Both the position numbers and the translations under genes were made by a program. A DNA stretch of 34,947 nt from Candidatus Woesearchaeota archaeon (lineage in GTDB: Archaea > Nanobdellota > Nanobdellia > SCGC-AAA011-G17 > GW2011-AR20), in contig JAGVYZ010000016.1 of NCBI GenBank assembly GCA_018303025.1, forward strand, positions 1 through 34,947, written 5' to 3'. Position 1 is the first letter of the stretch; each line of letters begins with the position of its first letter. Of the stretch, positions 870 to 32,756 are shown piece by piece. The notes below the pieces were generated by a model. The model was given only the letters and a program-made list of their open reading frames with translations, did not search any database and had not been told where the DNA came from.

Positions 870-1408
870 TTTAATTCCTTCCCTGCTTTTTCAATCATCC
901 AGATTCCATCCATGAAGACTCTTCTATCTTTATCTGTAATTCTTGTTGATGATTCTATATTTGCAGCTGTTTGCCCTGCTTTTTCCTTGTCTGATGATTC
1001 CAGGGTAATGATGTCTTTGTCTAGCCTGACTTTTACACCTGGTAAGATTAAAGCTCTTCTTGGTATTTTCTCACCTAAGAAATTTTTAACAACAATTTCA
1101 TTTTTGTCTATAGCTACATTCATTGGAAAATGGCCAGAACAAATTTTTAATTTGTAAACATAAATTTCTAAAACACCTTTAATCATGTTTTTTAGATGAG
1201 CTGCTATTGAATTAAGATTTTTCTTGAAATTTCTTGTTGTCTTTGCTGTTGAAAGAATTAATTGATTATTAGAATGCTCCAAGTTCATACCAATTAACTT
1301 AAAGATTCTTGAATTTTCACCATGAGGGCCTTTTATTTTTACTAAAGAACCTTCTATGTGAACATTAACTTCTGTTGGTACATCTATTATTTTTTTGATT
1401 TGTTTCAT
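866..1408 (-). CDS. rpl6: Ribosomal protein uL6
   Basis: This 180-residue protein begins MKQIKKIIDVPTEVNVHIEG, has the first-repeat motif VKIKGPHGENSRIF and the second-domain motif KNFLGEKIPRRALI, and ends with an archaeal-type tail (TRITDKDRRVFMDGIW). It binds 23S rRNA near the sarcin-ricin loop. I start it at the ATG at 1408. The frame stays open six codons further to a GTG, but those codons are part of a family A hairpin and are not conserved in the family. The stop overlaps the eL32 start as ATGA. The leader upstream is made of family A repeats rather than the short gaps seen elsewhere in the operon. Confidence 0.95.
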   Translation of the reverse strand: MKQIKKIIDVPTEVNVHIEGSLVKIKGPHGENSRIFKLIGMNLEHSNNQLILSTAKTTRNFKKNLNSIAAHLKNMIKGVLEIYVYKLKICSGHFPMNVAIDKNEIVVKNFLGEKIPRRALILPGVKVRLDKDIITLESSDKEKAGQTAANIESSTRITDKDRRVFMDGIWMIEKAGKELK

Positions 1409-1503
1409 TTTATATAGGGGTTGCACCCCTTATGACCCCGCTACTATTCTTCATGAACCCGCTACTATCCTTCATGAACCTGCTCAAACAGATTCTTGAA
1501 CCT
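1409..1503 (-). repeat. Family A repeat array in the uS8-uL6 gap
   Basis: Three head units (GCAGGTTCATGAAG type) are spaced exactly 21 nt apart, with a fourth diverged unit 22 nt away. The array ends next to uL6 in a hairpin whose stem is AGGGGT..ACCCCT. A TAAAATGAA string occurs on both sides of the array, once at the uS8 stop and once at the uL6 start. The array interrupts what would otherwise be an almost gapless gene junction. Confidence 0.85.
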
Positions 1504-1512
1504 GCCTTCATT

Positions 1513-1902
1513 TTAGTATACGAATGCTATTAATCTTCCACCCAATCCTTTTTCTCTAGATTGCAGATTGGTCATCATTCCTTTTGGTGTAGAAACGATT
1601 ACTATTCCAAATCCTTTAGCAGGAAGGAATCTTTTTTCATATTTTTCCAATGTTGATTTTTTGAATGCAAATCTTGGCTTTATAACCTTGCAGTTATTTA
1701 TTGCGTTAATTAAATTTATTTCAACATAACCAGCCCTGGCATCTTTAACAATCTTATAATCTCCAATGAATGAATTATCTTTCATTATTTCCAAGACTTT
1801 TTCCATTTGTTTTGAAACAGGTGAAATCAAGCAGGTTGTTTTTCCAGCTTTCTCGCTATTAAAAATCTTTGACATCAAGTTTGATAAGGTATCGTTTAAC
1901 AT
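1513..1902 (-). CDS. rps8: Ribosomal protein uS8
   Basis: At 129 residues this matches the usual archaeal length of about 130. It starts MLNDTLSNLMSKIFNSEKAG and ends with the conserved RNA-binding region VSTPKGMMTNLQSREKGLGGRLIAFVY, where STPKGMMT and GGRLIAFVY are family hallmarks. uS8 binds helix 21 of 16S rRNA in the small-subunit platform. The start lies one base after the uS14 stop, consistent with coupled translation. No oddities are visible in the protein. Downstream, a family A array separates it from uL6. Confidence 0.97.
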   Translation of the reverse strand: MLNDTLSNLMSKIFNSEKAGKTTCLISPVSKQMEKVLEIMKDNSFIGDYKIVKDARAGYVEINLINAINNCKVIKPRFAFKKSTLEKYEKRFLPAKGFGIVIVSTPKGMMTNLQSREKGLGGRLIAFVY

Positions 1903-1903
1903 T

Positions 1904-2134
1904 TTATGAATATTGTTTAAATCCTATTTTTCTGGCGTTAAGTCTAAAACACTGTCTGCATAATCCTATTCCATATTGCTGTAGATGAGCACCAACTCTT
2001 CCGCATAATTTGCATTTGTGCAATGCATCTCCGCAACTTCTTTTCTTTGAAAGATTATGTTTCTTGAATTTTTCAAGCTTTTTTGGTTTTACTTTTAATT
2101 GCTTAAAAACTTTAGTTGGATTACTGTAACTCAT
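1904..2134 (-). CDS. rps14: Ribosomal protein uS14, zinc-binding type
   Basis: Four cysteines (C41, C44, C59, C62) in CKLC...CRQC form the zinc knuckle of the archaeal/eukaryotic uS14 form. The C-terminal IGFKQYS is typical. Length is 76 residues against about 54 in many archaea, because a basic N-terminal stretch of about 22 residues ([19 protein letters not shown]) precedes the usual start region. There is no later ATG in frame, so the start at 2134 is the only good option and overlaps the end of uL5 by 14 nt. It belongs to the small-subunit head. Confidence 0.95.
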
Positions 2135-2651
2135 TTTCTTCTCCTCTTGTTATTATTTGTATTTTGAATTCTTCTTTTATGAATTTCATTGCTTCTTCTT
2201 TTGTTATTTTATGCTTATTGCTTATTTTTGAAGATGGTCTTCTTAATTTTACCCTGTAACCTGGTTTTTTTAATGTAACAGCTACGTCTAAACCAATGAT
2301 TCCGATTTCTGGCATATATTCTACGCCGGGAATATCAATATATTCTTTTACGCCAAAAGAAAAATTTCCATTTCTGTCAAATTTTCTTTCTGTAATCTTG
2401 TTTTCATTAGCTGCTAGTAATCTCTTTAAAATATCGAATGCTTTTTCATGCCTTAATGTTACTTTTGCAGCAATTGGTAATTTAGGGCGTAAGTTCCATG
2501 TAGGAATTCTTGCCATTGTTATTGTTTTAACTGGAGTGGAATTTGAAATTTTTTGAAGCAACTTAATAGCTTTGTTTAATTTATCTCCTGCTTCTCCTGC
2601 TCCTATATTTAATGTTACTTTATCTATTGTTATTTTCTGCATTGGATTCAT
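2121..2651 (-). CDS. rpl5: Ribosomal protein uL5
   Basis: The 176-residue protein has the family start [23 protein letters not shown], the central [21 protein letters not shown] segment and the [14 protein letters not shown] motif that faces 5S rRNA. The C-terminal part ([21 protein letters not shown]) is the archaeal form. It binds 5S rRNA in the central protuberance. The start overlaps the eS4 stop by 4 nt (ATGA) and its end overlaps uS14 by 14 nt, so it sits in a tightly packed stretch without repeat elements. Confidence 0.97.
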
Positions 2652-3334
2652 ATTATTTCCTCGTCGATAACGAAAGCATAATCTTTTTGTGTTTCATATA
2701 ATTTTTTTTCATGCTTGAATGAGATTTTATCAAATTTTGTTTTGCTTGACTGGATTTTTGTTTCTTCCAAAGTTCCTGTTAATCCTTTGTGCTTGCCACC
2801 TGTCAAATACACTTTTGCATTTTTTTCAAACTTTAATGTTTTTAATGGTTTATTTGTTTTCAAATCAAACAAAACAGTATCATTTACACTGTAATTATCC
2901 TTATCTAAAATTAAATTTTTTCCATCTGAAAAATTAATCTGAATTTTTTTATTTTTCATTATTCTTTTTCCTATAACTTTTGATGGTTTGATATTAGGAT
3001 GCTTTGCTTCTACTAGTATGAATTTGTTATTTTCATCCAACAATAATCTTCTTGGCTTTTCATTTTCTATTTCAATTATATCAAATAATCCTAATGGCAA
3101 TTTTTGATCATGAACAATTTTATTATTGACTTTTACTAATTTTCTTTGCAAAATATTTCTTGTTTCCCTAGCTGTTTTAATTAATTTTAATGTATTTCTC
3201 AATAATAATCCGACTGGAATACATTCTTGGATTGCATGAGGACCAGATGATGGCTTGATTGTCCATTTTGTTTCTTTTATTGAAATAGGCCAAGCTTTAG
3301 GTGCCAAATTTCTGCAAAGATGATTATTTACCAT
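2648..3334 (-). CDS. rps4e: Ribosomal protein eS4
   Basis: The 228 residues start MVNNHLCRNLAPKAWPISIKE, equivalent to the HLKRLAAPKSWPI signature. An S4-type RNA-binding stretch follows (IPVGLLLRNTLKLIKTARETRN, then the VNNKIVHDQKLPLGLFDIIEI loop), then a central eS4 domain and a C-terminal KOW-like segment (VYLTGGKHKGLTGTLEE). It is a small-subunit protein of archaea and eukaryotes. The start overlaps the repeat-derived C-terminus of uL24 by 11 nt, suggesting that uL24 was lengthened into it. The length is close to the archaeal norm of 230-240. Confidence 0.96.
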   Translation of the reverse strand: MVNNHLCRNLAPKAWPISIKETKWTIKPSSGPHAIQECIPVGLLLRNTLKLIKTARETRNILQRKLVKVNNKIVHDQKLPLGLFDIIEIENEKPRRLLLDENNKFILVEAKHPNIKPSKVIGKRIMKNKKIQINFSDGKNLILDKDNYSVNDTVLFDLKTNKPLKTLKFEKNAKVYLTGGKHKGLTGTLEETKIQSSKTKFDKISFKHEKKLYETQKDYAFVIDEEII

Positions 3335-3794
3335 TTTTTAAGCTCCTTGTAGGGATTGCATCCCTTACGACCCTGCTATTATTCTTCATGAACCTGCCTT
3401 CATTTACGACCCTACTATCTTTCACGAATTCGCTTTTTAAAATTCTTTTTTTATCTTCATACAAAGATGTTACTATTAAATTTGAAGGATCTAAGGGAAT
3501 AAAAGATGTTTTTCCTGTTTTATTGCTTTGAGTTATTCCTTCAATGTAAACTTTCATTTTATTTAACAAAACTTTTTCAATTTTTCCTGATTTACCTTTA
3601 TTACTTCCACGAACAATTTTAACTACATCATTTTTTCTTACAGGGATTGAGCGTCTATTATATTGTTTGATTAATTCTTTTGACAAATGAGAAGAAACCA
3701 TTTTATGCTTAACATGAAGAGGAGCATTCAATCTATACTTTCTCTGTTTTCGAGCTTTTTTGCTGCTTTTCCATTTTAGTGAAAAAAATTTCAT
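3324..3794 (-). CDS. rpl24: Ribosomal protein uL24 with repeat-derived C-terminus
   Basis: I start this at the ATG at 3794 (MKFFSLKWKSSKKARKQRKY), as in archaeal uL24. The four-codon TTG extension upstream overlaps the uL14 stop and is unlikely. The core has the HVKHKMVSSHLSKELIKQY stretch and a KOW motif (VRKNDVVKIVRGSNKGKSGKIEKV) that binds 23S rRNA near the tunnel exit. The last ~35 residues (SEFVKDSRVVNEGRFMKNN, then SRVVRDAIPTRSLKNGK) are encoded by family A units and do not look like the family. They run over the eS4 start by 11 nt. The core would end near residue 121 at SLYEDKKRILK. Confidence 0.94.
   Translation of the reverse strand: MKFFSLKWKSSKKARKQRKYRLNAPLHVKHKMVSSHLSKELIKQYNRRSIPVRKNDVVKIVRGSNKGKSGKIEKVLLNKMKVYIEGITQSNKTGKTSFIPLDPSNLIVTSLYEDKKRILKSEFVKDSRVVNEGRFMKNNSRVVRDAIPTRSLKNGK
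3346..3433 (-). repeat. Family A repeats forming the uL24 C-terminus
   Basis: One hairpin (stem GGGAT..ATCCC in the mRNA sense) and four head units spaced 21, 18 and 18 nt apart lie at the 3' end of the uL24 gene. All spacings are multiples of three and no stop occurs in the uL24 frame. The reading phase (GRFMK, SRVVRDA) is the same as in the other coding copies. Confidence 0.85.
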
Positions 3795-3798
3795 CTTC

Positions 3799-4200
3799 TT
3801 ATACAACTATAGATGCCAATTTTGTAATTGCTGGCCATCTTTCTCCTACTTCTTTGGCTATTGGACCCTTTAAAATAGTTCCCTTTGGGCTTCCTTTATC
3901 GTCTTTTAATACAACTGCTGCATTGTCTTCAAATCCTACTGACAATCCATTTTTTCTTTTGAATTCTTTTTTTTGTCTTACTATAACTGCGTAAACAACT
4001 TGTTTTCTTATTCCAAGCTTTCCCTCTACTACTGATGCCTGGATTAAATTACCAATTCCACCTGCTGCAATTCTTCCTTTTTTTGTTTTTATACCAATTA
4101 CAGAGATGATTCTAAGTGTTTTTGCACCTGAATTATCAGCTGCATTTATTCTTGCACCGAAATTTAATGATCGGATTATTTTTGTTGACATTGCTTTCAT
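3799..4200 (-). CDS. rpl14: Ribosomal protein uL14
   Basis: At 133 residues this is a standard archaeal uL14. It has the INAADNSGAKTLRIISVIG motif near residues 18-36, the YAVIVRQKKEFKRKNG segment and the C-terminal GPIAKEVGERWPAITKLASIVV. It sits at the subunit interface and contacts 23S rRNA and uL19/eL24 neighbours. The ATG at 4200 overlaps the uS17 stop as ATGA. A second ATG three codons later is possible but less well placed for coupling. Nothing unusual is seen in it. Confidence 0.97.
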   Translation of the reverse strand: MKAMSTKIIRSLNFGARINAADNSGAKTLRIISVIGIKTKKGRIAAGGIGNLIQASVVEGKLGIRKQVVYAVIVRQKKEFKRKNGLSVGFEDNAAVVLKDDKGSPKGTILKGPIAKEVGERWPAITKLASIVV

Positions 4201-4514
4201 TTTTCAAATCCTATAACTACAAAACTTTTTGTTTTTGATAATTTTCTACATTCGCCTATTACTACCTTATCTCCTGTTTTTATATCCAAACAAGGAGGAC
4301 AATGAGCATGAATTCTTGTTGTTCTTTTTTCATAACGTTCATATTTAGGCAGGAATTTCAATCTTGGAAATTCTATTGTTGTTGTTCTGAATACATCTAT
4401 TTTTTTTACTTTTCCTGAAAATATTCTACCTCTAACTCTTAATGAGCCGTGAAAAGGACATCTTTTATCCTGGCATTCTTTTTTTGGTTTTTCTATTTTT
4501 ATTCCTGGTTTCAT
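4197..4514 (-). CDS. rps17: Ribosomal protein uS17
   Basis: The 105-residue protein has the archaeal N-terminal motif CQDKRCPFHGSLRVRGRIFSG (equivalent to DPNCPFHG), the OB-fold strand VKKIDVFRTTTIEFPRLKFLPKYERYEKR, and the RIHAHCPPCLDIKTGDKVVIGECR region. It is a primary binder of 16S rRNA in the small-subunit body. It is preceded by a 40-nt gap after rnp1, one of the few non-repeat gaps in this operon, which might hold an internal promoter or processing site, though no convincing box is seen. Confidence 0.97.
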   Translation of the reverse strand: MKPGIKIEKPKKECQDKRCPFHGSLRVRGRIFSGKVKKIDVFRTTTIEFPRLKFLPKYERYEKRTTRIHAHCPPCLDIKTGDKVVIGECRKLSKTKSFVVIGFEK

Positions 4515-4554
4515 TTTTTTGTTTTTTCCTTTTGATTAAACTTTTTTTAAAAGT

Positions 4555-4782
4555 TTATTTTATCCTGTCTTCTGGTTTTTTGATTATTTCTTTACCATTT
4601 ATAATTTGACTACCTATCTTGAATTTAATCTGGGATTTTATCAGATGCTTTGTTTTATTTTTTGCTTTTAAAACAAGCATGTTTTTTGTTTCCCAAATTA
4701 CTTTTCCTTTAAGGCCAATCAAATTTTTGTTATCAGCTTCGATAATTTCAATCTCTTTGCCAATTATCTCTTGTTTTATCAT
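4555..4782 (-). CDS. rnp1: RNase P protein component 1 (Rpp29/Pop4 family)
   Basis: This short 75-residue protein has the Rpp29 Sm-like beta-barrel pattern: IIGKEIEIIEADNKNLIGLKG, then VIWETKNMLVLKAKNK and a final IINGKEIIKKPEDRIK, where PEDR is the family signature. It assists the RNase P RNA in 5' maturation of tRNAs. The position between aIF1 and uS17 is the conserved archaeal location and supports the call. The start overlaps the aIF1 stop by 4 nt. It is shorter than the usual 90-120 residues, with compact loops, as is common in reduced archaeal genomes. Confidence 0.92.
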   Translation of the reverse strand: MIKQEIIGKEIEIIEADNKNLIGLKGKVIWETKNMLVLKAKNKTKHLIKSQIKFKIGSQIINGKEIIKKPEDRIK

Positions 4783-5084
4783 TGAACACTGATTGTATCC
4801 TGGGGAAAGCCGAGTTTTATTAATTCTTGTTTTACTTTGGCTTTATGATCGCCTTGGAGTTCAATTTTGCCGTCCTTGACTGTACCGCCGCATGCAAATT
4901 TTTCTTTCAATGCTTTGGCAATATTTTTTAGGTCAATGTTTTTGTCCAAACCTTCAACTAATGTTGTAAGTTTGCCAAATCGTCTTTTGACAGCTGTTAT
5001 TGTTATCCTCTGATTCTCCTTTGCGATATTCTCCCAGCTACCTAATTCTTTTGGCAGGCCTGTGATCGGGTCTATGTTACCCAT
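4779..5084 (-). CDS. Translation initiation factor aIF1 (SUI1 family)
   Basis: The 101-residue protein shows the SUI1 fold: ITITAVKRRFGKLTTLVEGLD near residues 27-47, then LKEKFACGGTVKDGKIELQGDH with the hallmark FACGGTV, and the C-terminal KQELIKLGFPQDTISVQ. aIF1 helps the small subunit scan or discriminate start codons and keeps the complex in the open state. The gene follows uL29 by 4 nt and overlaps rnp1 by 4 nt. The N-terminal PITGLPKELGSW is typical of archaeal members. GC content is a little higher than in its neighbours. Confidence 0.96.
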   Translation of the reverse strand: MGNIDPITGLPKELGSWENIAKENQRITITAVKRRFGKLTTLVEGLDKNIDLKNIAKALKEKFACGGTVKDGKIELQGDHKAKVKQELIKLGFPQDTISVQ

Positions 5085-5088
5085 CTCT

Positions 5089-5286
5089 TTATTTTTTACC
5101 TCCTTCTTGTTGATTTAAAAAAGTTAATACTCTAGCGATTTCTCTTCTTAATTTTCTAATATTTCCTGGATTTTCCGGAGTAGTACCGGAACTTTTTTGA
5201 GAGTTTAGCTTCATTAATTCTTTTCTTAATTCAACTAATTTACTCTTTTGTTCTTCTTTGTTTCTTGGTTGTTGGTTTTTTTTCAT
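5089..5286 (-). CDS. rpl29: Ribosomal protein uL29
   Basis: At 65 residues it is the size of uL29. Two helices with KLVELRKELMKLNSQKSSGT and a following NPGNIRKLRREIARVLTFLNQQE hairpin match the family, including the conserved IRKLRREIARVLT near the end. It sits at the peptide tunnel exit of the large subunit next to uL23. The ATG at 5286 follows a family A element that fills the gap after uS3. The basic start MKKNQQPRNKEEQ is specific to this lineage. Confidence 0.93.
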   Translation of the reverse strand: MKKNQQPRNKEEQKSKLVELRKELMKLNSQKSSGTTPENPGNIRKLRREIARVLTFLNQQEGGKK

Positions 5287-5357
5287 TTTATATAAGGGCT
5301 GCGCCCTTCATGAACCTGCGCACGAACTTGTGTACGAACCTGCTAAAAAAGCAGTAT
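5287..5357 (-). repeat. Family A repeat in the uS3-uL29 gap
   Basis: In the mRNA sense this has three GCAGGTTCRT-like heads (one is decayed) and one hairpin with stem AAGGGC..GCCCTT and loop GCA, ending just before the uL29 ATG. The gap starts at the uS3 stop with ATGAATA, and uL29 starts ATGAAAA. An original ATGA overlap split and duplicated by the insertion would explain this, but the shared string is only five bases. Confidence 0.8.
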
Positions 5358-6101
5358 TCATGATGTTGCTGTTTCTCCTGTTTTAATTTCATTTACCTTC
5401 AAAGACTTTCTTTTCTTGACTTCTTTTTCTTTTTTTGTATCTTCTTCTATTTTTTCTTCTTTGATTTCTTCGATGATAACTTGAGGTTTTAAATCTTCTT
5501 TAGTTAATTTAAAACGAATGGTATCTGGCAAGATTACATCTGGATGAATTATTTTTACCTGGATACCTATTGCACCTGATTGCAAATGAGCTACTGTCAA
5601 TGCTTTATCTGTGAAACTTTGAGCAACATTTCCTGATTTTTTTAAGTGACCTGCCATAAATCTCCATCTTTTACTTCTGGAACCTGGAACACCTCTTCCT
5701 GAAATTACTATTTCTGCACCAATTGCACCTGCATCAATTATATCTTGGAGAGCTCTGTAACCTATTGATTTGAATCTTTTTGGACCGTATTTTTCAAATG
5801 TTGAAACAATTCTTTCTCCAATTCCTTTTGGATCTAAATTTGGTGATTCAACTTCTGCAACATCAATCTGAGGATTTTCCATTTTGAATTTTGTTTTTAA
5901 AACAGAAGTTAAACTTTGAATATTAGAACCTTTTTTTCCAACGATTAAACCAGGTCTTGAAGTATGAACAATTATTTTTTCACCTAATGGTGTTTTCTTT
6001 AATTCAATAAAACTATAGGAGCCTTTTGGCAATTGAGCTGTTAAATATTGCTCTATTAAAAATGAACGTCTTTTCATTGCTAATATTTCTTTTTCAATCA
6101 T
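5358..6101 (-). CDS. rps3: Ribosomal protein uS3
   Basis: The 247-residue protein has an N-terminal KH type II domain with the GXXG-containing segment RPGLIVGKKGSNIQSLTSVL near residues 49-68, then the C-terminal uS3 domain (SGRGVPGSRSKRWRFMAGHLKKSG and AVTVAHLQSGAIGIQVKI-like motifs). It lines the mRNA entry channel on the small-subunit head. The start overlaps the uL22 stop as ATGA. The last ~40 residues (EEIKEEKIEEDTKKEKEVKKRK) form a charged, probably disordered tail that is not built from the repeats. Confidence 0.97.
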   Translation of the reverse strand: MIEKEILAMKRRSFLIEQYLTAQLPKGSYSFIELKKTPLGEKIIVHTSRPGLIVGKKGSNIQSLTSVLKTKFKMENPQIDVAEVESPNLDPKGIGERIVSTFEKYGPKRFKSIGYRALQDIIDAGAIGAEIVISGRGVPGSRSKRWRFMAGHLKKSGNVAQSFTDKALTVAHLQSGAIGIQVKIIHPDVILPDTIRFKLTKEDLKPQVIIEEIKEEKIEEDTKKEKEVKKRKSLKVNEIKTGETATS

Positions 6102-6604
6102 TTTTTAGTTACCTTCTTTTCTGCAGTAAGGGTTGCACCCTTCACGAACCTGCTTTTATTTTCATTTACTTCTTTTAATATAATCTGGATATGTGTATTT
6201 TTCATTCGTCTTCTTTTTTGCCTTCCTGGATGCCATTGCATTGGACCTTTATTGACTATTATTGAAGAAATGTATAAATTCTGGTTTAAACCAATATTTT
6301 TTGCATTTGCTTCTGCTCCTTTTATTAATCTTAAAATTTCCATACAAGCATTTATTGGAAATTTACCAGGACCTATTGCTGTTTTATGAGCAACTTCCCT
6401 GTCAAATCTTCTATATGGGACTGCTTTTTTCAATGAAATTACTTCTTCTAACATTATTTTAGCTCTCGCTGTTTTTTTATTTCTAATCATATTTGCAATT
6501 TCAACTGAATTTTTAGTTGAGATAGTCAAATTCTTTGCATTAACAACTGCTTGTTTAGTAAGGGTTGCACCCTTCACGAACCCGCTAATATTTTTATCTT
6601 CCAT
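6098..6604 (-). CDS. rpl22: Ribosomal protein uL22 carrying repeat peptides near both ends
   Basis: The core is clear: LTISTKNSVEIANMIRNKKTARAKIMLEEV, then AHKTAIGPGKFPINACMEILRLI and the C-terminal hairpin region MQWHPGRQKRRRMKNTHIQIILKE, which in this family extends into the exit tunnel. Two copies of nearly the same peptide are grafted on: SGFVKGATLT at residues 7-16 and SRFVKGATLT near residues 154-163, both encoded by family A hairpins. Length is 168 against about 150-155 usually. The N-terminal copy follows the ATG by only six codons, so the ancestral start might lie after it. The stop overlaps uS3 as ATGA. Confidence 0.95.
   Translation of the reverse strand: MEDKNISGFVKGATLTKQAVVNAKNLTISTKNSVEIANMIRNKKTARAKIMLEEVISLKKAVPYRRFDREVAHKTAIGPGKFPINACMEILRLIKGAEANAKNIGLNQNLYISSIIVNKGPMQWHPGRQKRRRMKNTHIQIILKEVNENKSRFVKGATLTAEKKVTKK
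6121..6154 (-). repeat. Family A hairpin inside the uL22 C-terminus
   Basis: In the mRNA sense this has the head GCAGGTTCGTGAAGGG, loop TGCAA and return arm CCCTTAC, encoding SRFVKGATLT. It lies after the last conserved uL22 strand (IQIILKE) and about ten codons before the stop, in the same frame as the other coding copies. Confidence 0.92.
6557..6592 (-). repeat. Family A hairpin inside the uL22 N-terminus
   Basis: It starts with GCGGGTTCGTGAAGGG and closes with CCCTTAC, coding SGFVKGATLT directly before the conserved uL22 start region. It is nearly identical at DNA level to the copy at the other end of the same gene and to the copy before uL23. Confidence 0.92.
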
Positions 6605-6678
6605 TTTATATAAGGGCTCCGCCCTTCATGAACCTGGAAAAGCCCTTCATGAACCTGAAATTATTTTTAGTTTCCATT
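6605..6678 (-). repeat. Family A repeat and duplicated start region in the uS19-uL22 gap
   Basis: Two CAGGTTCATGAAGGG heads occur, one followed by a hairpin with stem AAGGGC..GCCCTT and loop GGA. The gap begins right after the uS19 stop with ATGGAAACTAAAAATAATT. uL22 itself begins ATGGAAGATAAAAATATTA. The two stretches match at 15 of 19 positions, so the gap seems to contain a decayed copy of the uL22 start. Confidence 0.82.
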
Positions 6679-7077
6679 TTATCTAGCTGATACTGCTCCA
6701 CTTGATTTTGTAGCGCCTAGACCAGGAGCTGAATGTTCTACTTTTCTTCTTGTCATTGAAAATTCACCTAATCTCATTCCTAACATTTCTGGTTCTATTA
6801 AGACAGGAGAAAATTCCTTTCCATTGTGAATCTGAATTGTTAGACCTACCATTTTTGGTAAAACAATCATATCACGACAATGAGTTTTAACTGGTTTTTT
6901 CCTTACACCTTTTAAGGCTAAATCTATTTTTACTAACAATGCTTTTTGAGCATCTGAAAAACCATGCAATAAAGCTCTTCTGGTTCTACTTGGAACTAAT
7001 TTCATAAACTCTTTAATATCTAATTCTTTTAGTTCTTCTATTGTTTTTCCTCTATATGTAAATTTCTTTAATGCCAT
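6679..7077 (-). CDS. rps19: Ribosomal protein uS19
   Basis: The 132-residue archaeal form has FTYRGKTIEELKELDIKEFMKLVPSRTRRAL at the N-terminus, the RNA-binding KTHCRDMIVLPKMVGLTIQIHNGKEF segment, and EMLGMRLGEFSMTRRKVEHSAPGLGATKSS. uS19 lies on the small-subunit head close to the A-site finger. The ATG at 7077 is one base after the uL2 stop. The tail SSGAVSAR ends at a stop followed by the family A element before uL22. Confidence 0.97.
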   Translation of the reverse strand: MALKKFTYRGKTIEELKELDIKEFMKLVPSRTRRALLHGFSDAQKALLVKIDLALKGVRKKPVKTHCRDMIVLPKMVGLTIQIHNGKEFSPVLIEPEMLGMRLGEFSMTRRKVEHSAPGLGATKSSGAVSAR

Positions 7078-7078
7078 T

Positions 7079-7795
7079 TTACTTTTTCTTACCTCTACCT
7101 GTTCTCTTTGCTCTTATTAATCCAACCTTTCTTCCTGGAGGAGCATTTCTTGGTGCAGTAGCTGGTTTACCCATATGTCTACCTCTACCTGAACCGAATG
7201 GATGGTCTACTGCATTCATTGCAACTCCTGAAACAACTGGATATAATTTATTTTTAGCCTGCATGATGTGGTGCATTTTTCCTGCTTTTAATATTGGTTT
7301 TTCTCTTTTACCTGCACCTGCGATTATTCCTACAACTGCGCGACAATTATCTGGAAATTTCTTTTGTTTTTTTGATGGGAATTCGATTGTAACTTCATTA
7401 TTTAATTTTGAAAGAACTCTTGCTGAACTTCCTGCTGTTCTGCAGAAAATTGGACCTGAACCTGGCAATTTTTCAATTGCACAAATATTTGTATTGTCTG
7501 GAATTTGTGATAATTCCATTATATTTCCTGGTTTTGCTGTATCTAAACCTAATGTAACAAAAGTTCCTTCTCTTACTCCTAATGGAGCTGGAATTACTGC
7601 TTGTGCTCCATTTTCATATTTTATGATTGCTAATGGAGCTGATTTTGAAACATCCCTAACTAAAGTGATTATTTTTCCTACAATTGGATTTTGTTCTGTT
7701 TTTGGGAAATTAAAGAAATATTTAAATCTATGAACCTGCGATCTATAGCGCATTGTTCCTCTTCCCCTTCTCTGACTAATAATATTTTTTCCCAT
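7079..7795 (-). CDS. rpl2: Ribosomal protein uL2
   Basis: The 238-residue protein has the archaeal start MGKNIISQRRGRGTMRYRSQVHRFKYF, the OB-like and SH3-like domains with LPGSGPIFCRTAGSSARVLSK, and the near-C-terminal VSGVAMNAVDHPFGSGRGRHMGKPATAPRNAPPGRKVG. The conserved histidine in AVDHPFGSG needed for peptidyl transfer-centre assembly is present. The gene sits two bases after uL23 (stop at 7797) and one base before uS19. No repeat insertion is seen in this long, highly conserved protein. Confidence 0.98.
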   Translation of the reverse strand: MGKNIISQRRGRGTMRYRSQVHRFKYFFNFPKTEQNPIVGKIITLVRDVSKSAPLAIIKYENGAQAVIPAPLGVREGTFVTLGLDTAKPGNIMELSQIPDNTNICAIEKLPGSGPIFCRTAGSSARVLSKLNNEVTIEFPSKKQKKFPDNCRAVVGIIAGAGKREKPILKAGKMHHIMQAKNKLYPVVSGVAMNAVDHPFGSGRGRHMGKPATAPRNAPPGRKVGLIRAKRTGRGKKK

Positions 7796-7796
7796 C

Positions 7797-8048
7797 TTAC
7801 ATGAAACCTAATTTTGTAGCTACATCAATAGCTGGATTTTCTTTTGATAATTTAGCGTAAACTTTTTTATGTCCTGAATGAGTAATTAATGAATTTATTT
7901 TTTCAATTTTCACATTTAATAATTCTTCTAATGCTTTTTTTACTTCTTCTTTTGTTGCTTTTCTATCTACTATAAATGTTAATTTGTTTTCTGTCTGCAT
8001 TAAGCGGACTGCTTTTTCTGTTGTTATTGGATGTTTTATTGCTTCCAT
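7797..8048 (-). CDS. rpl23: Ribosomal protein uL23
   Basis: From the ATG at 8048 the protein is 83 residues: MEAIKHPITTEKAVRLMQTEN, then LTFIVDRKATKEEVKKALEELLNVKIEKINSLI and the short archaeal end AIDVATKLGFM. This agrees with the family length of about 80-85. An upstream GTG in frame at 8069 would add MKGATLT, but those codons are the family A hairpin, so I reject it as the ancestral start. It could still be used. uL23 sits at the tunnel exit where SRP and other factors dock. Confidence 0.95.
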   Translation of the reverse strand: MEAIKHPITTEKAVRLMQTENKLTFIVDRKATKEEVKKALEELLNVKIEKINSLITHSGHKKVYAKLSKENPAIDVATKLGFM

Positions 8049-8169
8049 TGTAAGGGTTGCACCCTTCACGAACCTGCTATCATTGACAAACTTGCCATCA
8101 TTGACGAACCTGCCAAAAATGCACTGTTCCTGAAGTTACTTAAACCTCCATTTTATTATTGCTTCCATT
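8036..8169 (-). repeat. Family A insertion between uL4 and uL23, flanked by a 14-nt duplication
   Basis: The sequence AATGGAAGCAATAA (mRNA sense) occurs twice: at 8169-8156, directly after the uL4 stop, and at 8049-8036, where it is the true uL23 start. Between them are decayed head units, a clean head GCAGGTTCGTGAAGGG and hairpin AAGGG..CCCTT. Removing one copy plus the middle would leave a one-base gap between uL4 and uL23, the normal spacing in this operon. This is the clearest insertion footprint of family A in the window. Confidence 0.85.
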
Positions 8170-8967
8170 TTACATGAATAATTTTTCCTTTTCTAATTTT
8201 TCAATTGCTGATTCTGAATATATTGTTAATCTTCCTGCTTGTGTACCTGGAGCTAATAATTCTGCATTGATTTTATTTATTGAAACTATTTCCAAACCCT
8301 GAATATTTGAAACTGCTTTTACTAATGGGCAGTTTTTTGAAACTACAAACAAAGGACCTTTTTTTATTCTATATTTTCTTCCTCTGAATTTTCCTTTACC
8401 TGGGCGAATTTTTTTACTTTCTGTTCTTGCTATTTCATCTTTTAATCCTAATTTATTTAAGACTAGCATGACTTCACTTGTTTTCTTTAAGTCTTCTATT
8501 GCTGGAATTACTATTAATGGGAAATTTGTAAATCTATGATTTCTTAATTTAACTAAAGTTTCATTTAATGTAGCGGATAATGCTGAGCGAATTGCTTTTC
8601 TGTTTTCTTTTACATTTACTTTTACTTTTCTATTTTTACTTGCTTTAGGTGGATGAGCTTTTCTACCGCCTTTGGTACCTGGAACAAAAGCACCTTCCCA
8701 TGCAAATTGAGAACCTCTATGCCACATTGTTTTTCTAGCTACTCTGGACATTCCTTTACCATAAGAACCTTTGTAATCTTTTCTTCTTCTTGAAATGTCA
8801 ACTGCTTGTCTTTTACCTGCTTCTGGATATGCTCCATAAGGCTGTCTTTTGTTTTCTCTTATTGCTAAAACAGCTCGTTTAATTAAATTAGGATGATATG
8901 GCTCATTGAATTGCTCTGGTGTTTTTATTTCTTTTACTTTATTACCTTGTAAATCTAAGACTTTCAT
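8170..8967 (-). CDS. rpl4: Ribosomal protein uL4
   Basis: From the ATG at 8967 there are 265 residues, the archaeal length. Motifs are MKVLDLQGNKVKEIKTPEQF at the start, KRQAVDISRRRKDYKGSYGKGMSRVARKTMWHRGSQFAWEG with the RGS tunnel-loop region, GGRKAHPPKASKNRKVKVN, and C-terminal LLAPGTQAGRLTIYSESAIEKL. A longer frame begins at 8985 with MESLLK, but that ATG is inside a family A hairpin. uL4 reaches the exit tunnel and in some organisms regulates the operon. No such site can be shown here. Confidence 0.96.
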   Translation of the reverse strand: MKVLDLQGNKVKEIKTPEQFNEPYHPNLIKRAVLAIRENKRQPYGAYPEAGKRQAVDISRRRKDYKGSYGKGMSRVARKTMWHRGSQFAWEGAFVPGTKGGRKAHPPKASKNRKVKVNVKENRKAIRSALSATLNETLVKLRNHRFTNFPLIVIPAIEDLKKTSEVMLVLNKLGLKDEIARTESKKIRPGKGKFRGRKYRIKKGPLFVVSKNCPLVKAVSNIQGLEIVSINKINAELLAPGTQAGRLTIYSESAIEKLEKEKLFM

Positions 8968-9047
8968 TTTAAGTAAGGATTCCATCCTTTACGAACCTGG
9001 TACGAACCTGCAACCATGTTCTTTTTTTGTTTTTATTTAATTTCATT
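8968..9047 (-). repeat. Family A repeat in the uL3-uL4 gap
   Basis: Two head units (GCAGGTTCGTA and CAGGTTCGTAAAGG) and a hairpin with stem AAGGAT..ATCCTT and loop GGA end 5 nt before the uL4 ATG. The string TTAAAATGAAA is present at both ends of the gap, once just after the uL3 stop and once at the uL4 start, resembling the start-site duplication seen before uL23. Confidence 0.82.
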
Positions 9048-9998
9048 TTAAAAAATAACCTCATTTAACTTTGTTTTACCGTCACTGCTTCTTCTCATTG
9101 CTGGTGTAAATATAATTAATCTTTTTGCTGGACCTGGAATTGAACCTTTCATTACTAAATACTGGTTTTTTATCAAGCCATATTTTGGGAAACCTGAAGA
9201 TGGATTTATTTTTTGGTCATTTCCAATTTTCATTATTAATTTATTGTATTCTGTTCTTTTATGAAAACCATGCTGACCTGCCTGGGCTACTGTGAAATGT
9301 ACTCTTTCATCTCCCTGAGCACCCAGATTACCAGGTGTTCTTGTTGATTTTTCTGATTTTTTTTGCCTTAAACTAATATGAAATCTTCTTACTGGACCTT
9401 GCAAACCATGACCTCGTGTTATTGCGTGAGCATCAACAAACATATTGTCTCTGAAAATTTCATTTACTAATATTTCTTTTTTCTCTAAAAATGTTTTTGC
9501 TTCTGCTAATGGCAAATTTAATCTTAATTCAAGAACTTCTGGTTTCTTTTTTCCTATTGTTGTTAGTTTTGGCTGAGTATATATTGCTAATCTTAATTCA
9601 TCATAAGGGCTGTCGCCCTTCATGAACCCACTTTCTTCTTTATGCTTTTTTGCTATGATTATTTTTCTTTCTAATTCTTTATCGAGATTTTTATTTTGAA
9701 TTTCTCCAATGCATTTTAAACCATCTATTGTTTTTTTATAGAATCTTAATGCCAATGGTTTTACTGGAGGACATTCAATTATTGTAACAGGAGTTATTAT
9801 TGCTTCCTTGTTTTTTCTGTTTGTATCTGCATCATGATATTCTGCCCGAGCCATGCCTACTTTATATCCTAGAAAACCCATTAATGAACTGGTTTTTGAT
9901 TTTACTGAATATGATTTCACATTTGAGTAAATTCTCTTGGCTCTTTTTCTTGGCCAATACTGCAAACTACCTGAATGTGACTTGTGTGCTCTTGCCAT
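9048..9998 (-). CDS. rpl3: Ribosomal protein uL3 with an internal repeat peptide
   Basis: The ATG at 9998 gives 316 residues starting MARAHKSHSGSLQYWPRKRAKR, the conserved archaeal start. The frame stays open upstream to 10154, but that part lies in repeat DNA before the promoter. Family motifs: LMGFLGYKVGMARAEY near residue 40, FVDAHAITRGHGLQGPVRRF, and a final KRLIIFTPAMRRSSDGKTKLNEV. uL3 nucleates large-subunit assembly near the peptidyl transferase centre. A family A copy at 9603-9632 inserts SGFMKGDSPYDE before the conserved LRLAIYTQP strand. The TATA box at 10023-10032 suggests a leaderless mRNA, making this the first gene of the operon. Confidence 0.95.
   Translation of the reverse strand: MARAHKSHSGSLQYWPRKRAKRIYSNVKSYSVKSKTSSLMGFLGYKVGMARAEYHDADTNRKNKEAIITPVTIIECPPVKPLALRFYKKTIDGLKCIGEIQNKNLDKELERKIIIAKKHKEESGFMKGDSPYDELRLAIYTQPKLTTIGKKKPEVLELRLNLPLAEAKTFLEKKEILVNEIFRDNMFVDAHAITRGHGLQGPVRRFHISLRQKKSEKSTRTPGNLGAQGDERVHFTVAQAGQHGFHKRTEYNKLIMKIGNDQKINPSSGFPKYGLIKNQYLVMKGSIPGPAKRLIIFTPAMRRSSDGKTKLNEVIF
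9600..9634 (-). repeat. Family A hairpin inside uL3
   Basis: Mid-gene copy in the mRNA sense: GTGGGTTCATGAAGGGC, then loop and GCCCTTATG. The stem is AAGGGC..GCCCTT with loop GACA. It codes SGFMKGDSPYDE between a charged loop (AKKHKEE) and the conserved strand LRLAIYTQP. It is the only copy in the window placed in the middle of a protein rather than at an end or in a gap. Confidence 0.9.
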
Positions 9999-12035: not shown

Positions 12036-12131
12036 AGCCCCATAGTCTAGTGGTCAAGGACGTGGCCCTCTGGAGGCTGAGACCCAGGAGCATAAGTAAA
12101 TATGCTGGGAATTCGAATCCTGGTGGGGCTA
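12036..12131 (+). tRNA. tRNA-Gln(CTG) with one non-canonical intron
   Basis: The acceptor AGCCCCA pairs with TGGGGCT and the discriminator is A. The anticodon stem TGGCC/GGCTG closes loop CTCTGGA, anticodon CTG. The T stem CCAGG/CCTGG with loop TTCGAAT forms only after removing 12089-12111. The mature molecule is 73 nt without encoded CCA. The anticodon loop is not interrupted. Its last 12 bases are repeated at 13362-13375 behind the next gene. Confidence 0.93.
12089..12111 (+). other. tRNA-Gln intron, position 53/54 (T-stem/T-loop border)
   Basis: The 23-nt insert folds into an ideal bulge-helix-bulge: central helix CCCA:TGGG, 3-nt bulges GGA and AAT cut as GG^A and AA^T, inner hairpin GCATA:TATGC. 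Excision yields a normal 7-nt T loop. Confidence 0.9.
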
Positions 12132-15706: not shown

Positions 15707-15825
15707 GTTTCCTTTTAATTAACGATGGGTTTAAATGTTTTTTTATTTGATTTTTTCATAATACAAAAATTTATAATTGGTTTTTTTAATCTGTTATTAA
15801 TGCTCCTGTAGTGTAGCTCGGTCAA

Positions 15826-15902
15826 ATAAGCTTTCTTTCTGTAGAAAGAAACCTTAAGGAAAGAAAGACCGAATGACTTAAGGAAGAAAGAGCTTAGACC
15901 AT
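15826..15902 (+). other. tRNA-Glu intron 1, D loop (position ~21/22)
   Basis: The central helix GGTC:GACC is flanked by bulges AAA (cut AA^A) and ATT (cut AT^T), with inner helix TAAGC:GCTTA. The body has the family B hairpin TTTCTTTC-TGTA-GAAAGAAA followed by ACCTTAAGGAAAGAAAG. Excision restores a D loop of the expected length. Confidence 0.85.
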
Positions 15903-15939
15903 TCACTCGACCCTCTCACGGTCGAAACCTGGGTTCAAA

Positions 15940-16008
15940 AGAAGCCTTTTCTTGTAAGAAAAGCCTTCGGGGAAAAGAACACCTTGAAGAAAGAAAAGCT
16001 TCTGGAAG
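15940..16008 (+). other. tRNA-Glu intron 2, T loop (position ~59/60)
   Basis: The central helix TTCA:TGGA (one G.U) has bulges AAA (AA^A) and AGT (AG^T) and inner helix GAAGC:GCTTC. The first ~40 nt align with the repeat before rsmA: AGAAGCCTTTTCTTGTAAGA here against AGAAGCCTTTCTTTTGTAAA there. Excision leaves loop TTCAAAT. Confidence 0.88.
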
Positions 16009-16029
16009 TCCCAGCAGGAGCAGTACTTT

Positions 16030-16140
16030 TTCTTTCTGTAGAAAGAAAACCTACGCTAAAAGAAAGACACAAGAAAAAACCTACACTAAAAAAGAAGCAA
16101 TTAGAAAACCTACACTAAAGAAAACACTTGAAAGAAAATA
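16030..16140 (+). repeat. Family B copy with tandem CCTACACTAAA units
   Basis: The hairpin TTTTCTTTC-TGTA-GAAAGAAAA is followed by three copies of AAACCTACRCTAAA separated by A-rich spacers, directly behind tRNA-Glu and before the PAP2 gene. The CCTACRCTAA core replaces the CCTTMAGG core of other copies, suggesting local duplication and drift. Confidence 0.75.
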
Positions 16141-16169: not shown

Positions 16170-16742
16170 ATGAAAAAAGAGTATTTAATAAAAGGAATCT
16201 GGTTTTTTGCAATATTTCTTTTAATTTATACTATTGTTAATATGCTTTCAATTGGAAGAAGTTATTTTCATTTTGCCTTTGCTTTTGAGGAAACTATGAA
16301 GGTTATTCCTGTATTTTTGATATTTTATGTTTCGTCTTATATCATAATTGCAATGCCTTTTTTTGTTTTGAAAAGAAGCTATGAAATAAGGAAATTAGTT
16401 TATGTTTATTGGACAATTGCCATTATTTCCTTTATTATTTTTTTATTGATTCCTGCGAAAGTTGTAAGACCTGTTGTTATTGATGGATTTTTTGCATGGG
16501 TGCTTAATACCTTCTGGACTTATTTTGATTTGCCTTATAACTCATTGCCTTCTTTGCATATTTCTTTGAGTTTTGCTGCTGCTTATTTAATGAGAAAACA
16601 TCTTAATTTTGTTTATTTACTCTTATGGGTTTTACTAATTGCTATTTCAACCATACTAACTAAACAACATTATATCTTAGATATTGTTACTGGATTAGCT
16701 TTAAGTATTCTTGTTTTAAGCCTCTTTAGAAAAGAGCCTTAA
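16170..16742 (+). CDS. PAP2-superfamily membrane phosphatase
   Basis: The 190 residues have about six membrane helices. The PAP2 catalytic motifs are visible late in the protein: YNSLPSLHISLS (the PSxH motif, with the acid/base histidine) and STILTKQHYILDIVTG (the final H..D motif with the nucleophile histidine). The first motif, K..RP, is represented by AKVVRPVVIDG. These enzymes dephosphorylate lipid or isoprenoid phosphates at the membrane. A polyprenyl-phosphate or phosphatidyl substrate is possible but not shown. The stop lies 23 nt before the first duplicated start of rsmA. Confidence 0.85.
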   Translation: MKKEYLIKGIWFFAIFLLIYTIVNMLSIGRSYFHFAFAFEETMKVIPVFLIFYVSSYIIIAMPFFVLKRSYEIRKLVYVYWTIAIISFIIFLLIPAKVVRPVVIDGFFAWVLNTFWTYFDLPYNSLPSLHISLSFAAAYLMRKHLNFVYLLLWVLLIAISTILTKQHYILDIVTGLALSILVLSLFRKEP

Positions 16743-16763
16743 GGGAGAAAAATAATTTAATCA

Positions 16764-16849
16764 AAATGATAAAATATGACCATCAGAAGCCTTTCTTTTG
16801 TAAAAGAAAACCTTCAGGGAAAGAAAACAGAAATGATAAAATATGACCA
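16764..16849 (+). repeat. Family B insert bracketed by a 19-nt direct duplication at the rsmA start
   Basis: AAATGATAAAATATGACCA occurs at 16764-16782 and again at 16831-16849, where it is the true rsmA start. The 48 nt between are a family B copy (AGAAGCCTTTCTTTTG, hairpin, CCTTCAGGGAAAGAAAA). The first ATG (16766) opens a 26-codon reading frame that runs through the element and stops inside the second copy. Confidence 0.9.
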
Positions 16850-17534
16850 GCATTTTATGATTGATGAAGAACTAATTAAAAGAATTGTTAGCTACTTAGA
16901 TATTCAACAAAATGAAAGTGTTATTGAAATTGGTGCTGGAAATGGAGCTTTATCTTCTGAATTATATACTAAAACTAAAAATTTAAATTTAGTTGAAATT
17001 GATAAGGAATTGATTTCTGGATTAAAAGAGAAGTTTAAAGATGTAAAAATTCTTAATAAAAATGTTTTAAACATGGAGTTGAAGTATGACAAGATAGTTG
17101 GTAATATTCCTTATAACATTTCTGAACCTCTGTTTAATAAATTATTAAAAAGTAATTTTAAGAAAGCTATATTTACTGTTCCTAATAATTTTTTAATTTC
17201 ACCTCTTTTGAATAAACTAATGAATACATTTTTTAAAATTGAAACTTTGGAGATCGTGGATAAAGATAAGTTTAAACCTAAACCCAGAGTTTTATCTAAA
17301 GTTATTTCTGTTGAGCATAAAAAATTAAATGACAATGAAAGAATATTGAAAGAGGTTTATATTAACCAGACTAAGAAATTAATGAATGCTTTTGAAGATG
17401 CTTATTTTCATGTTTTGAAATTATCTAAAAAACAAACTAAAGAGAAAATTCCTGCTTTTGAATTTTTAGAAAAAAGAGTTTACATGTTGAATACTAAAGA
17501 GATGAGTAAAATTGTTGAGTTCTTGAATATTTGA
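16833..17534 (+). CDS. rsmA: 16S rRNA dimethyladenosine transferase RsmA/KsgA/Dim1
   Basis: From the ATG at 16833 the protein is 233 residues: MIKYDQHFMIDEELIKRIVSYL (the QHF.ID start typical of the family), SAM motif I VIEIGAGNGALSSEL, acidic VEIDKELI, motif IV NIPYNISEPL, and FTVPNNFL. It dimethylates two adenosines in the 3' hairpin of 16S rRNA during small-subunit maturation. An earlier in-frame start at 16776 would prepend residues from the inserted repeat and is rejected. The length is short against the usual 260-280, with a trimmed C-terminal domain. The duplicated start upstream leaves a decoy ATG. Confidence 0.94.
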   Translation: MIKYDQHFMIDEELIKRIVSYLDIQQNESVIEIGAGNGALSSELYTKTKNLNLVEIDKELISGLKEKFKDVKILNKNVLNMELKYDKIVGNIPYNISEPLFNKLLKSNFKKAIFTVPNNFLISPLLNKLMNTFFKIETLEIVDKDKFKPKPRVLSKVISVEHKKLNDNERILKEVYINQTKKLMNAFEDAYFHVLKLSKKQTKEKIPAFEFLEKRVYMLNTKEMSKIVEFLNI

Positions 17535-23833: not shown

Positions 23834-24709
23834 GTGGTAACCACTATTGAAGAAAACCTAAGAAAAAAAGTTTCTAAGGAACGAAATTTAGAGATGAGAA
23901 AATATGGAAGAATAAGAACTTATGATAAAATAGCTACTTTTCTAGATGGAAACAAGAAAATAGCTTTTTCCTTGGTTAATCATGCTTTAGCTATCATAGA
24001 TGACGAGGTTGATACGAATGCAAACATAACCCAATTAGACAGAGCAAAACAAATATTAAATGATTCTTTCAATAACCGAAAAAGTTCAATAAAACTAGGT
24101 TGGGAAAAAAATATATTTGAATTAGGAGCAATATTATTAAAATTAAAAAAAGAAAATTTTGAATATACCACAGATTTCTTTAATGAAGTTATAAACTATT
24201 GGGATATTGAAAAACAAAACCTTAAGAGAAAAGATAAAATTCTTAATTCTTATGATCTGGACAAATTAAATTCAAAAATTGGAAAATCTGTAGGAATTCA
24301 ATTTCTTTATCTTTTATGTCCTGAATTAGACAAAAAAACTATAAATTCGATTGCTTATTCTTATGGATTTGCTATTAAACTTGCAGATAATGTTTCAGAT
24401 TTAAATGAAGATTTAAATAATGGGTTTATAAATATTTCAAAAGAAAATATCAAGAAATATAATTTAGACTTAAAGAACTTAACTGAAGAAAAGCTTAATC
24501 CTTATATTCAAGATGAGCTTAATAGAATTAAAGATTATTATAAAAAGGGTGATGAAGAATTAAATTTAGTTTTAGTAAAATATCCTTCTTCTAGGACTGG
24601 TGTTTTATTATTTAAAGAAATTGCATATTCTTGGTTTAAGCAGGTTTTAGAGGTTTATAAAAAAATAAAACGCCTGGAGAGGGACTCGAACCCACGACCC
24701 CATGGTTAA
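23834..24709 (+). CDS. Squalene/phytoene-synthase-like isoprenoid enzyme
   Basis: The protein has two aspartate-rich regions in the class I isoprenoid synthase arrangement: NHALAIIDDEVDT near residues 49-61 and YGFAIKLADNVSDLNEDLNNGFINIS near 184-209, the latter like the LANxxRDxxED..GR.Y segment of squalene/phytoene synthases. I infer head-to-head prenyl condensation or a related prenyl reaction. The substrate is unknown. The start appears to be GTG (23834). No ATG suits until codon 21. The last 13 codons (RLERDSNPRPHG*) are the antisense of the tRNA-Asn 3' end, so the C-terminus is borrowed from the tRNA gene. Confidence 0.7.
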   Translation: MVTTIEENLRKKVSKERNLEMRKYGRIRTYDKIATFLDGNKKIAFSLVNHALAIIDDEVDTNANITQLDRAKQILNDSFNNRKSSIKLGWEKNIFELGAILLKLKKENFEYTTDFFNEVINYWDIEKQNLKRKDKILNSYDLDKLNSKIGKSVGIQFLYLLCPELDKKTINSIAYSYGFAIKLADNVSDLNEDLNNGFINISKENIKKYNLDLKNLTEEKLNPYIQDELNRIKDYYKKGDEELNLVLVKYPSSRTGVLLFKEIAYSWFKQVLEVYKKIKRLERDSNPRPHG

Positions 24710-24774
24710 CAGCTTCACATTTCCTGAGGAAATCCTCAAAAAAACATGTGCTCTACCAACTGAGCTACCCAGGC
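24671..24774 (-). tRNA. tRNA-Asn(GTT) with one intron at position 30/31
   Basis: On the minus strand the acceptor GCCTGGG pairs with TCCAGGC (one G.U) and the discriminator is G. After excision the anticodon stem is CATGG/CCATG with loop CTGTTAA, anticodon GTT. The T loop is TTCGAGT. Without excision the fifth stem pair is missing. Its 3' half overlaps the end of the convergent isoprenoid-synthase-like gene. Confidence 0.94.
24714..24744 (-). other. tRNA-Asn intron, anticodon stem 30/31
   Basis: This 31-nt insert is a textbook bulge-helix-bulge: central helix CACA:TGTG, bulges TGT (TG^T) and AAG (AA^G), inner helix of six U-A/U.G pairs plus GAGG:CCTC with loop ATTT. It is unrelated in sequence to family B. 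Confidence 0.9.
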
Positions 24775-31795: not shown

Positions 31796-32329
31796 TTATT
31801 CTTTTGCTTTGATTTCTTCTTCATCTAATGACTTTTTTCTTTTATCAATAAAAGCATAAACATTTCCATGCTTGCTTCCCATTATTAAGTTGATTAATGC
31901 CTGCTTTGCAATTTCTGCTTTTTCTATTTCTCCAATAATTGCAACTGTTTTTCCATAAACTGAGATATTTGAAAATGTTAAACTTTCAATTGACCTTCTT
32001 GCTTTTCCTCCAGTACCAATTAATCTTGACCTGGCTGTTAAAATCTTTTTTTTGTTATTGCCGAGATAATCTTCCATATTGATTATTTCTAGAATATTTT
32101 CTTCATTTAGCAATCTTAATGCTATTTTTGGATTAAAACCACGGCCAATTGCTTTTATAATATTTAAAGTAATAAAACACTTTAATTCATCACCTTCTAT
32201 TAATACATCGCCTTCGTCTGAATCAACTCTTATTTTTGTTCCTGTTTTTGTTTCTAGTTCTCTTTTGGTAGAGCCCTCTTTACCTAATAACATAGCGATT
32301 CTTTCTTGTGGTATTTTTAATTCTTGCAT
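31796..32329 (-). CDS. KH-domain ribosome-biogenesis protein (Pno1/Dim2 family)
   Basis: The 177 residues start with a first KH domain (IPQERIAMLLGKEGSTKRELETKTGTKIRVD, with the GKEG loop). A second KH-like domain follows, LTARSRLIGTGGKARRSIESLTFSNISVYGKTVAIIG (GTGG loop), and the end has MGSKHGNVYAFIDKRKK. This is the archaeal Pno1/Dim2 form, which binds the 3' end of pre-16S rRNA with RsmA/Dim1 and the Nob1 nuclease. It follows aIF1A on the same strand, as in many archaea, but the RIO1 kinase gene usually found between them is absent. A family A hairpin forms its immediate leader. Confidence 0.9.
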   Translation of the reverse strand: MQELKIPQERIAMLLGKEGSTKRELETKTGTKIRVDSDEGDVLIEGDELKCFITLNIIKAIGRGFNPKIALRLLNEENILEIINMEDYLGNNKKKILTARSRLIGTGGKARRSIESLTFSNISVYGKTVAIIGEIEKAEIAKQALINLIMGSKHGNVYAFIDKRKKSLDEEEIKAKE

Positions 32330-32360
32330 AGTAGGGATTGCATCCCTTACGACCCTGCGT
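32330..32360 (-). repeat. Family A hairpin in the KH-gene leader
   Basis: In the mRNA sense the head GCAGGGTCGTAAGGG and stem GGGAT..ATCCC end four bases before the ATG of the KH gene. It resembles the uL24-internal copy more than the uL22 copies. Confidence 0.82.
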
Positions 32361-32383
32361 AAGATGCTTTAACTTAATTTTTT

Positions 32384-32716
32384 TTAAAACTCTTCTGTTG
32401 ATTCCAATGTCTTCAACATGCCTTTTTTCTTTAACCACTCAACCTGGTTTGGACGATATTTGAAAATAATATCTCCTTTTGTTTCAGGAATATACTCCCA
32501 TGGTTCAACTATTACAACATCATTTTCTCTTATCCAGAGTTTTCTTTTTAATCTTCCTGGAATTCTGCAGTTTCTTACTTTTCCATCAAAACAGCGAACT
32601 AACATTCTAGAACCACCTACTCTTTGCTCTACTATTCCTAAAGATTGCTTTCCTTTTGGCGTAGGAACTCTGGTTACTATTTCTTCTTCCTGAACATATT
32701 GTTTTTTTCTTTCCAT
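32384..32716 (-). CDS. Translation initiation factor aIF1A
   Basis: The 110-residue OB-fold protein starts MERKKQYVQEEEIVTRVPTPK and has GIVEQRVGGSRMLVRCFDGKVRNCRIPGRLKRKLWIRENDVVIVEPW, the core of the IF1/eIF1A family, then a C-terminal helix with GDIIFKYRPNQVEWLKKKGML as in archaeal aIF1A. It binds the A site of the small subunit during initiation and cooperates with aIF1, encoded in the ribosomal operon of this window. A family A hairpin lies between it and the NMD3-like gene upstream. Confidence 0.97.
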   Translation of the reverse strand: MERKKQYVQEEEIVTRVPTPKGKQSLGIVEQRVGGSRMLVRCFDGKVRNCRIPGRLKRKLWIRENDVVIVEPWEYIPETKGDIIFKYRPNQVEWLKKKGMLKTLESTEEF

Positions 32717-32756
32717 TTGAATTTTTAGTTGTTATTTATGTTTTTTAATGCTTCCT

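Follow-up and report, generated by a model that had tools for sequence, protein, structure and literature searches.

A family B palindromic element between two copies of the rsmA start in a woesearchaeal genome

How did rsmA come to have two beginnings? In the window considered here (the whole of a 34,947-nt stretch of DNA from a Candidatus Woesearchaeota archaeon), direct reading finds AAATGATAAAATATGACCA twice at the start of this gene, without a mismatch and with 48 nt of a palindromic repeat, which we call family B, between the copies (Table 1). These are the only exact matches in the whole genome (a 1.06 Mb draft in 55 contigs), and just one further match, with two mismatches, was found elsewhere. 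The initial annotation had seen in this 19-nt repeat, which proved exact, a target-site duplication of a length ill suited to a classical transposase, and had supposed that a decoy ATG in the first copy might lower the translation of RsmA. Here we consider how far these suggestions hold, and what the other copies of the element imply about its movement.

Table 1. Features of the window discussed in the text
Feature	Position	Strand	Remarks
Family A hairpins between two gene-start copies (AAATGGAAACTAAAAAT and AAATGGAAGATAAAAAT)	6600–6679	-	Same arrangement as at rsmA, with the other hairpin family
tRNA-Glu (CTC)	15802–16022	+	Family B in D arm and T-loop; third hairpin just 3' of the gene
Family B copy as predicted T-loop intron of tRNA-Glu	15940–16008	+	Full bulge-helix-bulge motif
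Second family-B-like hairpin, with tail	16717–16751	+	3' end of upstream PAP2-type gene; direct reading
Copy 1 of 19-nt duplication	16764–16782	+	Derived; holds ATG 16766 and ATG 16776; single start in relatives
Out-of-frame short ORF from copy 1	16766–16846	+	26 codons; stop TGA 16844–16846 within copy 2
rsmA/ksgA ORF	16776–17534	+	Conserved protein from residue 20 (16833); residues 1–19 from copy 1 and element
Family B insert	16783–16830	+	Hairpin 16786–16815 (GAAGCCTTTCTTTTGTAAAAGAAAACCTTC), then purine tail 16816–16830
Copy 2 of 19-nt duplication	16831–16849	+	Conserved RsmA start, ATG 16833

The start of rsmA and its reading frames

One of the two ATG codons of copy 1 shares the reading frame of rsmA, which stays open across the element and gives an ORF of 252 residues (MTIRSLSFVKENLQGKKTE-MIKYDQHF...). 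As the match to the RsmA family sets in at residue 22 of this ORF, the conserved start is the one in copy 2, as had been proposed. The decoy frame of 26 codons does exist, but the in-frame ATG of copy 1 had been overlooked. No clear ribosome-binding site could be discerned by eye in the context of either ATG. As judged from the sequence, RsmA is probably made from ATG 16833, and some may be made from ATG 16776 as an N-terminally extended form; a lowering of RsmA expression by the insert is possible, and production of the extended protein equally so.

The gene upstream of rsmA is of the PAP2 type (PF14378 match), and its stop codon sits in the 3' foot of a second hairpin resembling family B. 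When folded as RNA, the 48-nt insert forms the hairpin listed in Table 1 (-7.9 kcal/mol), which is no more stable than those of shuffled sequences, and fold stability is therefore left out of the evidence.

Form, distribution and orientation of family B

Family B elements comprise a palindromic hairpin of about 30 nt followed by a purine-rich tail, with the rough consensus [G/T]AAG-C-[C/T]TTTCTTT...AAAGAAA[A/G]-C-CTT[C/A]-RGG-RAAAAGAA. The hairpin consists of a stem, a pyrimidine mismatch and a foot in which one side covaries with the other (GAAG/CTTC, TAAG/CTTA, TTAG/CTAA, GTAG/CTAC). In a scripted scan of the hairpins, pairing within the foot reached a score of 211, where 2000 shuffles gave 187 at most; this figure is indicative only, as overlapping matches of one copy were counted repeatedly. 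In the genome, a loose form of the pattern gave 74 matches (8 for a reversed control) and a strict form 29 (none for the control). The strict form is carried by 5 of 371 genomes of the phylum, among them G026, a genome of another family, with 10 copies. Two Micrarchaeota MAGs can be named as carriers, of which one is GC-rich at the locus, and the five copies inspected there are all in tRNA genes. Viral contigs yielded three pattern matches and no hairpins, which we attribute to chance. We found no description of family B in the literature searched, of which our coverage was incomplete.

The elements have a marked orientation. Outside tRNA genes, 36 gene relations are sense and 5 antisense, and all ten of the copies inside ORFs are sense. 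Several unrelated protein genes contain the palindrome in frame (as in a ppsA-like gene at L034 and in the in-frame extensions of ribosomal protein genes in G026). Such a bias could come from an RNA route of spread, or from selection against T-rich antisense copies that might end transcription.

The ancestral state and empty sites

In ten relatives of the same family, RsmA begins directly at M-x-x-[D/E]QHF, with neither element nor second copy, and relatives at the level of the order agree on a single start wherever the start is readable. Copy 2 is therefore the ancestral one, and copy 1 is derived. No relative was seen with both copies but without the element, a finding from which the initial annotation would have deduced a simple tandem duplication. 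Gene order upstream of rsmA is not conserved in relatives, and the PAP2-type gene is not beside rsmA there, so that the empty site of rsmA, which it had been suggested might be found in relatives, is known at the level of the gene only.

Closer views of the empty state, in which the target is single and uninterrupted, came from other loci. In G026, some 110 nt of family B material at cdc48 are flanked on either side by GAAAAATGGAAGCCAAA (17 nt), whereas in G087 the same upstream gene is followed by an orthologue (88% identity across 200 compared residues) that has one start and lacks the element. (An intein-like sequence, CLTGDTEVLTNPNGR..., lies within the Cdc48-type ATPase at L161 in G026 and interrupts it downstream of the cdc48 start.) Two gene junctions in the genome studied here tell a similar story. 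The gap between the DP1 and DP2 genes is +41 nt with the element, whereas it lies between -26 and +4 nt among the 15 relatives in which both genes are adjacent and the start is callable, and that between tldD and tldE is +118, compared with -4 to +1 in 13 relatives. At DP1–DP2 the left copy of the target keeps the upstream stop and the right copy the downstream start; both survive, and the duplication has therefore kept both genes.

Duplications at other gene starts, and copies without them

The left and right flanks of 73 family B copies were compared, with flanks re-paired between copies (6000 trials) as the null. The observed score at rsmA is 19; scores of at least 10 arose in 56 of the 6000 null trials, and the only two above 14 (both 41) are ascribed to overlapping neighbouring copies. 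Four cases with unique flanks stand above the permuted null: rsmA itself, tldE (GGAAAACAAAATGAAGAC[A/T]CTAAAAGA, 27 nt with one mismatch), sufS (AAAATGAA[C/T]AAAG, 13 nt with one mismatch) and DP2 (ATGAATGAA, 9 nt exact, with a longer imperfect match besides). In all four, the start codon is inside the duplication. Shorter repeats, ATGA(A), flank the copies at L058, L066 and L076, and are not long enough to serve as evidence by themselves. The duplications at L054 and L047 were set aside as growth of local repeat arrays.

Most copies are otherwise. As many as 57 of the 73, including near-consensus copies and copies in tRNA genes, score 6 or less, the same as unrelated flanks, and at near-consensus intergenic copies (for example L131, L037 and L042) the flank match is not beyond chance. 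Comparison of a ribosomal protein operon in G026 with that of G087 gives the same impression: one insertion at the 3' end of a gene replaced a few codons with no long duplication, and another, between a stop and a start, has at most 4–5 nt duplicated. Duplication is thus variable rather than obligatory, its length ranging from about 5 to 27 nt where it occurs at all. The original proposal of insertion with target duplication is therefore largely right for the rsmA site, where single-start relatives and the parallel cases at other starts reinforce it, and does not hold as a mark of family B as a whole; the flanking duplications expected at other copies are real at tldE, sufS and DP2 and absent from the majority.

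In the same operon of G026 (L224, on contig C75), several family B copies give ribosomal proteins C-terminal extensions, and extra genes of about 0.4–0.8 kb, absent from G087, lie between the ribosomal genes. A second hairpin family (family A, GTAAGGGTTGCACCCTTCACGAACCTGC) recurs at or near minus-strand gene starts in the window (310–9632, 24809 and 32319–32787), some hairpins being in frame and one being associated with a duplicated gene start (Table 1).

Family B in tRNA genes

The tRNA-Glu gene a short way upstream of rsmA (Table 1) was missed by both ARAGORN and Rfam (at the gathering threshold). The copy in its T-loop is among six T-loop copies of family B that pass a strict test for the bulge-helix-bulge splicing motif, and the central helix of the T-loop copies varies in step on its two sides (TTCA/TGGA, TTCA/TGAA, TTCG/CGAA). 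A sister tRNA-Glu at L142 reads GGTCAATCACTCGG, which by our own, unscored reading is the product expected on removal of the D-arm insert.

Two further tRNA genes in the window have insertions, one in the T-loop (12036–12131, plus strand) and one in the anticodon loop (24671–24774, minus strand). A distinct hairpin subtype (AGTACTTTTTCTTT...AAAGAAAACCTACGCT) is found directly 3' of several tRNA genes (L041, L055, L075, L081, L142 and, in the window, 16022–16053).

How the duplication may have arisen

The history that we consider quite likely is that a family B element inserted within the first codons of rsmA, directly after ATGATAAAATATGACCA, and that the insertion copied 19 nt of the target to the other side of the element. 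The gene would have remained unbroken because, downstream of the element, it kept its original start in full. The duplication would have arisen in the insertion itself, with no fixed stagger; templated filling of a staggered break, template switching and an RNA-mediated route are candidate means. Insertion with target duplication is well supported by the two copies with the element between them, the single-start relatives, the variable length and the recurrence of such start duplications in two lineages and two hairpin families. Long duplications are confined to starts and overlapping stop/start junctions, we infer, because only insertions that restore both genes survive there, others having destroyed genes and been lost.

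Might the duplicated start instead have been selected as a leader, with initiation on copy 1, a stop near copy 2 and re-initiation tuning RsmA, by decoy or by coupling? The frame from the first ATG does end at the true start, or no more than a few bases from it, in tldE, sufS, the glycosyltransferase gene at L076, DP2 and the family A case; at rsmA, the stop of the short frame begins 11 nt past the true ATG. A purine-rich, T-poor tail would, however, put the first stop near the next ATG without any selection, and the stop positions differ at rsmA and cdc48, so that we think this explanation unlikely.

That the gene start was duplicated in tandem or by replication slippage, with the element adjacent merely by chance, seems decidedly unlikely. 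Hairpins promote slippage, and local repeats have indeed grown in some arrays of this genome (L054 and L047); but such duplications are seen at a number of gene starts that are unrelated, each time with a hairpin separating the copies, and at cdc48 element and second copy are present together (G026) or absent together (G087).

A DDE-type transposase making classical duplications of fixed length could account for the exact direct repeats at rsmA, and is nevertheless very improbable. To the initial annotation, 19 nt had already seemed long for such an enzyme; there is no fixed-length signature, since lengths vary from site to site and most near-consensus copies have no duplication, and a search for Y1 transposases in five genomes tied no transposase gene to the hairpins. 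That search revealed no autonomous element with matching terminal inverted repeats, and the one well-matched IS200-type TnpA has no family A or B hairpins flanking it and is not supported as the mover.

The perfect motifs of the T-loop copies raise the question of whether the insert is cut from rsmA mRNA as a bulge-helix-bulge intron, particularly as cutting out exactly 67 nt would leave the gene with a single start. The motif sought was two 3-nt bulges 4 bp apart, at any offset that restores the start, with a maximum score of 14. No start-restoring offset fitted: the best score was 9 at rsmA and at most 10 at tldE, sufS, DP2 and cdc48, against 14 for the tRNA control. We therefore reject such splicing for the copies in protein genes, and give it almost no credence at rsmA. 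Finally, although the genome is a draft in 55 contigs, an assembly artefact is scarcely believable, given similar cases that are independent of this one, at other loci and in a second genome, some with diverged duplication copies.

Returning to insertion with target duplication, we may ask what kind of element inserts in this way. It is conceivable, though improbable on present indications, that family B is a mobile element of DPANN archaea with an origin in RNA. Excised tRNA introns would be its source, and copies would reach transcribed genes, in sense orientation, by way of RNA and DNA repair, producing target duplications of variable length.

Comparison with known systems and wider significance

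Rickettsia palindromic elements (RPEs) are dispersed palindromic repeats, present both outside protein genes and, in frame, within them (review PMC10969869). Family B is likewise dispersed, palindromic and found in ORFs, a likeness of form. It differs in being archaeal, in its sequence and its size (about 30–50 nt against about 150 nt for RPEs), and in also forming predicted bulge-helix-bulge tRNA introns and inserting at stop/start junctions with duplication. REP sequences, associated with Y1 transposases (RAYTs) of the IS200/IS605 type, resemble it as short imperfect hairpins, in its case with a conserved internal mismatch and a covarying foot; in contrast to them, it lies inside genes and tRNAs with a sense bias, and has no co-resident Y1 transposase flanked by its hairpins, the sole well-matched TnpA being without them. 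Target duplication is not known for IS200-type transposition. Like MITEs, family B is dispersed and non-autonomous, with direct repeats at some sites, but these have no fixed length, and the search for Y1 transposases revealed no parent transposon.

With archaeal bulge-helix-bulge tRNA introns, the T-loop copies share the full motif, with a covarying central helix, whereas the rsmA copy fails the motif; ordinary tRNA introns are not known to be dispersed repeats that also occur in protein-gene regions. The introner elements of eukaryotes are mobile repeat families that serve as introns and have target duplications. Family B resembles them as a moving repeat that is also a predicted intron and has target duplications, and departs from them in that no splicing is predicted at rsmA.

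As a rule, the movement of small palindromic repeats goes unrecorded. Here, insertion points and duplication lengths can be read because insertions at starts and junctions keep the duplicated target and one relative keeps the empty site. The same family supplies predicted tRNA introns in distantly related archaea, and so bears on the origin of archaeal tRNA introns. If the improbable RNA-born origin were true, family B would be an archaeal counterpart of introners, seeding tRNA introns as well as new protein and leader sequence.

As a separate observation, a GC-rich Micrarchaeota contig (L119, JAHFEC010000061.1; GC 59%) contains the same AT-rich element together with a tRNA-trailing hairpin, which suggests either transfer or strong conservation.
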